Below are positions 1-36,112 of a DNA stretch of 45,543 bases, piece by piece. Under the pieces are notes generated by a model. It was given only the letters and a program-made list of their open reading frames with translations, was not told where the DNA came from and searched no databases. The DNA lies in the NCBI GenBank assembly GCA_040905805.1, contig JBBDQS010000154.1, positions 25,884 through 71,426 on the forward strand, given 5' to 3'. Position numbers and translations under genes: made by a program. The first letter of the stretch is position 1. The number at the start of each line of letters is the position of its first letter. The DNA comes from Egibacteraceae bacterium. Lineage in GTDB: Bacteria > Actinomycetota > Nitriliruptoria > Euzebyales > Egibacteraceae.

Positions 1-62
1 GCCCCCCCCCCCACACCCGGCACAGCTGAGAATCGCCCTCGCAGGCTCGGGCTATTCACGAG

Positions 63-20619: not shown

Positions 20620-20692
20620 GCGGACGTGGCGCAGCTGGTAGCGCGCCACCTTGCCAAGGTGGAGGTCGCGGGTTCGAATCCCGTCGTCCGCT
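20620..20692 (+). tRNA. tRNA-Gly (anticodon GCC)
   Basis: Full cloverleaf by eye: acceptor GCGGACG paired with CGTCCGC, anticodon stem CCACC/GGTGG around TTGCCAA with GCC at 20653-20655, and T arm GCGGG-TTCGAAT-CCCGT. The discriminator base is U and CCA is not encoded. Confidence 0.95.
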
Positions 20693-25564: not shown

Positions 25565-27018
25565 TTACCGGCGACGCGCCGCGGCCGCCCGGAGGGTGTG
25601 GCGCTGGGCGTTGAGCCACTGGTCGGGGGCGCCGAGCCGGGCCGCGGTCCGCAGGGTCTCGGCGCGCCTGGCGCGCTCGGCGGACTCCATGGTCAGCGCC
25701 GCGTGGAGGGCCTCGGCCTGACCGTCGACGTCGTAGGGGTTCACGAGCAGGGCACCGCCGGCCAGGACCGAAGCGGCCCCGGCAGTGCGGGACAGGACCA
25801 CGACACCGTCTCGGGTGTTCAGCACGGGGCCTTCCTTGGCGACGAGGTTCGTGCCGTCGATCACCGGGTTGGCGAACAGGACGTCGAAGCGCTGCAGGGC
25901 CGCGACGGCTCGCGGGTAGTCGTCACCCACGAACAGGGTGAGGGCTTCGTCCCCGAAGCGCTCCCGGATGCGCGCCGCCACCTCCCGGCAGGACCCGAGG
26001 TAGTCCCGGTAGGCGTCGACGCCCTGGCGGGAGGGGTTGAGGTGGGCGTAGTGCCAGACGCGCCCGCGGTGCTCGGGGTGGCGTTCGAGGAGCAGCTCGT
26101 AGGCGCGCAGCCCCCGCAGGATGTTCTTGGACAGGTCGGTACGGTCGACGCGCAGCAGCATCCGCCGTCCGTCGGCTTGCGCGTCGAGGTCCGCGCCGGC
26201 CGCCGCGACCGGCGCCGACGTCGCCGACGAGGCCAGGTCGGCCTCGTCCACGCCGAGCACGAAGTCGGTGACCTGGGTGCGGCGATCGTCGAGCCGGACG
26301 GCATCCCCGTCGATGGTCGCACCGAGCACGCTTGCCGCGCACCGCCGGAACGCGGCTGCCCACACCGGCGAGGAGAACCCGATGACGTCGGCGGCCAGCA
26401 GGCCCCGCACGACCTCCTCGACCATGCGGTCGGGCAGGCGGCGCAGGGCGTCGGGGTCGACCCACGGGGTGTGCATGTAGTGCAGCAGTTGCACCCCCGG
26501 CAGTCGCTCGCGCACCGCCTGTCCTGCGGTGCACAGGTGGTAGTCCTGCAGGAGCACCTCGGCCTGTCCGTCGTACTGGGCCGCGGGGGGGGGGGGGGGC
26601 CGCCCACGGCCGACGCCACAGCGGTGTTGACCGGCAGGTAGCCCTCGTCCCACTGCACGGGCCACCCCACAGCCGTGGGCTCGACCGGGGACGCCCACAG
26701 CTCGTGCAGGGTGAACCAGAGCAGGCGGTTGGCGACCTCGTTGTAGTAGGCATCGAACCGCGACCCGACATCGAGCAGGCGCAACCGCAGGTGGGACCCG
26801 TCCGCGTCCACGTCGAAAGGCGCTTGGGGGTGCGCGGCGGCGACCCGCCGGTCGGTCTCGCTCAGCGCCACCGACACCCACGTGCCGGGCTCGCTCTGCA
26901 GGGCGCCGCCAAGCGCCGTGACGAGCCCGCCGAAGCCGCGCTTGGCCACGAGCTCGTCGTCCACAGCCTTCCAGCTCACGGGCCCGCGGTTGCTCGCGAC
27001 CACCAGTCCGTCACCCAT
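25565..27018 (-). pseudogene. otsA: Trehalose-6-phosphate synthase (OtsA), interrupted by a frameshift at a 15-base homopolymer
   Basis: GT20 enzyme making trehalose-6-phosphate from a nucleotide-glucose and glucose-6-phosphate. ATG 27018 gives MGDGLVVASNRGPVSW, RGFGGLVTALGGAL and WDEGYLPVNTAVASAVGG. The frame is then lost inside a C15 run (minus strand). The adjacent frame continues with VLLQDYHL, LLHYMHTPWVDPDALR, VIGFSSPVWAAAFRR, VDRTDLSKNILRGLRAYE and FANPVIDGTNLVAKEGPVLN to the stop at 25565. One added C restores a 484-residue protein of normal family length. All conserved blocks are otherwise intact. The cause may be a sequencing error, phase variation or recent mutation. The start overlaps the end of the upstream lipoate-ligase-like gene by 8 bases. 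Confidence 0.88.
26585..26599. repeat. Homopolymer run of 15 G (C on the coding strand) inside otsA
   Basis: The longest mononucleotide run in the window, coding for a Pro-Pro-Pro stretch between the two conserved halves of OtsA. Runs of this length slip readily during replication and during sequencing. Confidence 0.9.
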
Positions 27019-28122: not shown

Positions 28123-28196
28123 GGGCGCTTAGCTCAGCTGGCGAGAGCGCTTGCCTTACACGCAAGAGGTCGCAGGTTCGAGCCCTGCAGCGCCCA
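28123..28196 (+). tRNA. tRNA-Val (anticodon TAC)
   Basis: Cloverleaf by eye: acceptor GGGCGCT paired with AGCGCCC, D arm with AGCTCAGCTGGCGAGAGC, anticodon stem CTTGC/GCAAG enclosing CTTACAC with TAC at 28157-28159, T arm GCAGG-TTCGAGC-CCTGC. Discriminator A; CCA not encoded. It marks the border between compact core genes and the gene-poor region to the right. Confidence 0.95.

Positions 28197-35737: not shown

Positions 35738-36112
<375 letters not shown>

Follow-up and report, generated by a model that had tools for sequence, protein, structure and literature searches.

Is the run of 15 cytosines that breaks an otsA-like reading frame a phase-variable switch, or is it an error in the recorded sequence? 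We addressed this question in the window, i.e., the whole 45,543-nucleotide stretch of DNA analysed here, which lies within contig C154 of the draft genome of an Egibacteraceae bacterium (3,614,802 bases in 166 contigs). An earlier note on this DNA had claimed a C15 tract that shifts the otsA frame, and the sequence as given bears this out. G15 on the forward strand, corresponding to C15 on the minus (coding) strand, occupies exactly positions 26585-26599 and is the longest homopolymer of the window. The next longest G run has 7 bases, and the sole other run of more than 7 is a C11 at 2-12. Depending on their order, Markov models of the window predict 2e-5 to 8e-4 G runs of at least 15 within it. 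The gene and its tract are laid out as follows.

26600 to 27018, minus strand: GT20 (OtsA-like) gene, N-terminal part of 139 codons and 2 further bases, beginning MGDGLVVASNRGP (open frame, PF00982)

26585 to 26599, minus strand: C15 tract, judged very probably an assembly or sequencing artefact (run position, genome-wide runs, relatives, repeat control)

25565 to 26584, minus strand: GT20 gene, C-terminal part, read in the frame that follows the tract, with the VDRTDLSKN and DGTNLVAKE blocks retained as judged by eye (open frame, PF00982)

The upstream frame is open from an ATG at 27018 to position 26600, and the downstream half has an open frame from 26584 onward, in a different phase. As the 2 spare bases of the upstream half are followed by the 15 bases of the tract, the two halves of the gene are out of frame, while the reading frames on either side of the tract are free of other damage. 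The assembly as given therefore contains a long, frame-shifting homopolymer within a coding frame, which is one of the marks of a contingency locus.

The otsA label of the earlier note is to be taken loosely. The C-terminal part matches PF00982 (Glyco_transf_20) with an E value of 3.4e-64, and the N-terminal part does so with 1.9e-6, below the gathering score. The best solved relative of the orthologue from the congener is 5lqd, a trehalose-phosphate synthase. In contrast to these likenesses to OtsA, the NCBIfam OtsA model TIGR02400 gave the congener orthologue 243.8 bits and the C-terminal part in the window 201.9 bits, well below the cut-off of 564.85. A second GT20 gene of the same genome (G000:C83:4467-5429, L130) reached 489.3 bits, also under the cut-off, and by these model scores it is closer to canonical OtsA than the window gene. 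Given this second gene, trehalose synthesis could persist even if the break were real. On the same strand nearby lie, among others, genes for a lipoyl-ligase-like protein, a DUF3467 protein and a cell-wall-binding/NAGPA protein; a scan of eight neighbouring proteins detected no trehalose phosphatase. Rfam searches also placed an RNase P RNA of class A (35740-36112) and two tRNAs (20620-20692 and 28123-28196) in the window.

Orthologues of the gene were searched for in 31 genomes, comprising its own (G000) and 30 relatives. A match was found in 27 of the 31, that is in 26 of the 30 relatives, with none detected in relatives G002, G017, G018 and G022. Results showed that the frame is open through the tract position in all 26 relatives with an orthologue. 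None of these orthologues carries the tract, the longest C/G run in the open frame being of 4-7 bases, and the 13 named loci that were compared likewise lack it (some of them are identical in sequence, e.g., L038 and L112). The earlier note had proposed checking relatives for a poly-C tract. Retention in relatives, as expected of a contingency locus, was observed in 0 of the 26, which speaks against phase variation.

The tract does lie between conserved blocks, as had been claimed, in the linker that joins the VN and DYHL blocks. This linker measures 22 residues in the congener, whose orthologue shares 80% identity across the C-terminal part, and 17-25 residues in the loci compared, a range that excludes one spurious longer pattern match in L110. 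In the window, counted by hand from both frames, it consists of 20 residues plus the part encoded by the tract. The earlier suggestion that one extra C would yield an intact gene was correct as to the frame, but the linker would then have 26 residues and exceed that of every relative compared; for the congener's linker length, about 4 bases would suffice in place of the 15. Because a 26-residue linker is unmatched in relatives, bases appear to have been overwritten or inserted rather than one base miscounted, and, as far as these sequence comparisons go, the error at the tract is probably an overwriting of bases and not a single-base miscount.

Long G/C runs recur throughout this draft, with 57 of at least 9 bases and 45 of at least 10. 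For runs of exactly 9, the count does not exceed what Markov estimates predict by chance, so the anomaly is confined to the long runs. For runs of at least 15, we observed 15 against 0.006-0.13 expected genome-wide under the Markov models of the window. The excess is not shared by the closest relative, as the only congener, G001, has no G/C run of at least 10 anywhere in its genome vs. 45 here. Among 60 relatives, 55 have at most 8 runs of this length. The five outliers (351 runs in G036, 61 in G016, 26 in G028, 20 in G006 and 17 in G017) belong to three families, and their excess is probably the same kind of artefact. As the outliers are scattered in this way, the patchy excess seems to reflect individual data sets rather than lineages.

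Sequence around each of the 57 runs was fetched, giving 47 clusters and 128,450 bases. Of the 12 N-gaps in these bases, 11 lie no more than 60 bases from a run of at least 10, and such neighbourhoods make up a small share of what was fetched. Contig ends were met in 6 of the 47 clusters, and contig C8 starts with G49. The runs thus cluster at gaps and contig ends. The otsA tract, however, lies near neither, which counts against reading it as an artefact. The other long run of the window does border a gap.

2 to 12, plus strand: C11, the second long run (borders an N10 scaffold gap, replaces the hairpin arm in a repeat copy)

13 to 26, plus strand: core motif ACACCCGGCACAGC of a dispersed repeat, serving as internal control (motif search, fold)

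The N10 gap ends immediately before the window start and is followed by the C11 (L099), which is an artefact of the same kind as that to which we assign the C15 tract. As to the polarity of the runs, plain 3′ poly-G read tails of two-colour sequencing predict, on the plus strand, G to the left and C to the right of gaps. Instead, 1 G and 4 C runs were observed on the left and 5 G and 3 C runs on the right, a pattern that does not fit this simple model. Fold-back runs, in which G is followed by C, are present among the clusters and suggest messier junk sequence.

Several of the G/C runs adjoin the repeat motif, which offers an internal control. Allowing at most one mismatch, the motif has 88 matches in its own genome vs. 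7 for the reversed control. All matches were read, and 87 are distinct by their downstream sequence. In 47 of these 87 a hairpin arm stands directly 5′ of the motif, the hairpin being GGCGGTCGC-TGC-GCGACCGCC, and in 14 a poly-C of 7 to 19 bases stands in place of that arm. The remaining matches comprise 9 with a gap within 25 bases, 3 at contig ends and 14 others, about half of which are plain chance matches. When only the family rows labelled by pattern were counted (n = 66), the arm was present in 39, poly-C in 12, a gap in 9, a contig end in 3 and something else in 3. The repeat folds as a strong hairpin (L135, z -2.82). Relative G003 has 80 matches of the same hairpin, yet only one run of at least 10 in its whole genome, which indicates that the element does not itself include poly-C. 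In the genome under study, poly-C occupies the place of the hairpin arm; the runs replace known sequence here, as they do at locus L060 when compared with the congener (see below).

The repeat itself is palindromic; a hairpin, GGCGGTCGCTGCGCGACCGCC, is followed by the ACACCCGGCACAGC motif and then by a second, imperfect inverted repeat, and it occurs in dozens of copies (13-26 of the window, L132-L211). Across the 31 genomes searched, the hairpin was counted 59 times in its own genome, 80 times in G003, 27 times in G005, not at all in congener G001 and 0-1 times in the others. A RAYT (Y1) transposase that could be associated with the family (PF01797) gave no match in its own genome, and Rfam gave no match at two loci with repeat copies.

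A second case within a coding gene was found at L060, where a G16 breaks the frame. The congener orthologue of this gene is 74% identical at the DNA level and has, at the position of the tract, a perfect short hairpin, GGGGTC-GTA-GACCCC. L060 shares the signature of the otsA tract, as in both a run in a coding gene is out of frame and longer than the congener's sequence. For a further tract, L074, no real orthologue match was found in the congener. We also scored the frame across runs by GC3 contrast. Only 6 of the 47 clusters were scorable, with 3 out of frame and 3 in frame, the other 41 being short, weak, without an ORF or on opposite strands; for comparison, of the 144 random 12-mers of the window that could be scored, 8 were out of frame. 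The excess of out-of-frame runs is suggestive only, and the in-frame coding runs (3 of the 6 scorable clusters) are probably natural. At L068 a G12 (1498-1509) reads in frame, by eye, as a glycine stretch within a gene that we take to be rsmI-like, and this run is likely natural. Folding gave no comparable signal for the otsA locus. The site as written forms no strong DNA hairpin (z +1.26; the true bases may differ), and the congener stretch at the same position folds no better than most shuffles (z -0.67). The otsA site is marked by neither a gap nor a contig end nor a strong hairpin, and its assignment therefore rests on the accompanying runs and on the relatives.

These data can be set against three other accounts of the tract. 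If phase variation were real, the C tract would slip in replication and toggle the GT20 enzyme. The tract is long enough for hypermutability, its halves are otherwise undamaged with the in-frame length one slip away, and poly-G/C switches are well known elsewhere, as excerpts of PMC8355987 describe. As in the phase-variable tracts of Campylobacter and Neisseria, a G/C homopolymer lies inside a coding frame; unlike in those, the tract is conserved in no relative, and the same assembly has similar runs beside its gaps, at contig ends and at the hairpins of its repeat. Against switching speak also the congener, free of such long runs throughout its genome, and the product, a metabolic enzyme of a family with a second gene in this genome. 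Among the best literature matches listed, titles and opening lines of abstracts do not join phase variation with otsA. We therefore consider real switching very unlikely. Likewise, it is hardly credible that an environmental actinobacterium related to Nitriliruptorales/Euzebyaceae toggles an OtsA-like glycosyltransferase by a real slipping tract that is one of dozens newly arisen and absent in its congener.

A plain miscount, in which a long tract is real and only the number of its C residues was recorded wrongly, draws on the error-prone length of homopolymers (PMC11140927, in excerpt) and on the frame being restored by one base. It would, however, leave a linker of 25 or 26 residues vs. the congener's 22 and a range of 17-25 in other relatives compared, and no relative has a tract to miscount; we regard it as improbable to a high degree. 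A real, recent frameshift that killed the GT20 gene is extremely improbable. The second, more OtsA-like gene could make the window gene dispensable, but neither half shows further damage, and such a death would not account for the assembly's other runs of at least 10 bases, of which there are 44.

The earlier note had left the choice between phase variation and sequencing error. Of the two, it is error that is strongly favoured by the run excess, the gaps and contig ends, the repeat, L060 and the relatives. Because dozens of runs stand at assembly gaps and hairpins in this draft and none occurs in the nearest relative, we conclude that the C15 tract is, with high probability, a sequencing or assembly artefact that is absent, as written, from the organism's DNA. 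Where sequencing or assembly was difficult, often at GC-rich hairpins, the stretch would have been written as G or C homopolymers, and these would overwrite or displace the true bases. We infer that the otsA tract arose like the other runs of the assembly; one such event may have struck the variable VN-DYHL linker of the OtsA-like GT20 gene, giving the appearance of a frameshift.

The cause presumably lies in two-colour chemistry with its dark G. In two-channel sequencing G is unlabelled (excerpt of PMC11140927), and poly-G tails are common enough for NovaSeq and NextSeq data to be trimmed with fastp (excerpt of PMC12527978). The runs resemble this Illumina artefact in being false G homopolymers, or C on the other strand, and differ from it in the departure of their polarity beside gaps from the read-tail model. 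Among the literature matches listed, none describes a directly comparable case of poly-G at the hairpins of an assembly.

For the organism, this conclusion removes a false lead, namely a C15 tract that would not be a real feature. The GT20 gene is most likely intact in the cell, with a few ordinary codons at the tract position, as in the congener. Repeat copies and a congener together provide a simple internal test by which spurious homopolymers can be distinguished from contingency loci in GC-rich drafts, and, as 5 of the 60 relatives show a similar excess of runs, frameshifts beside such runs in public drafts merit the same check.
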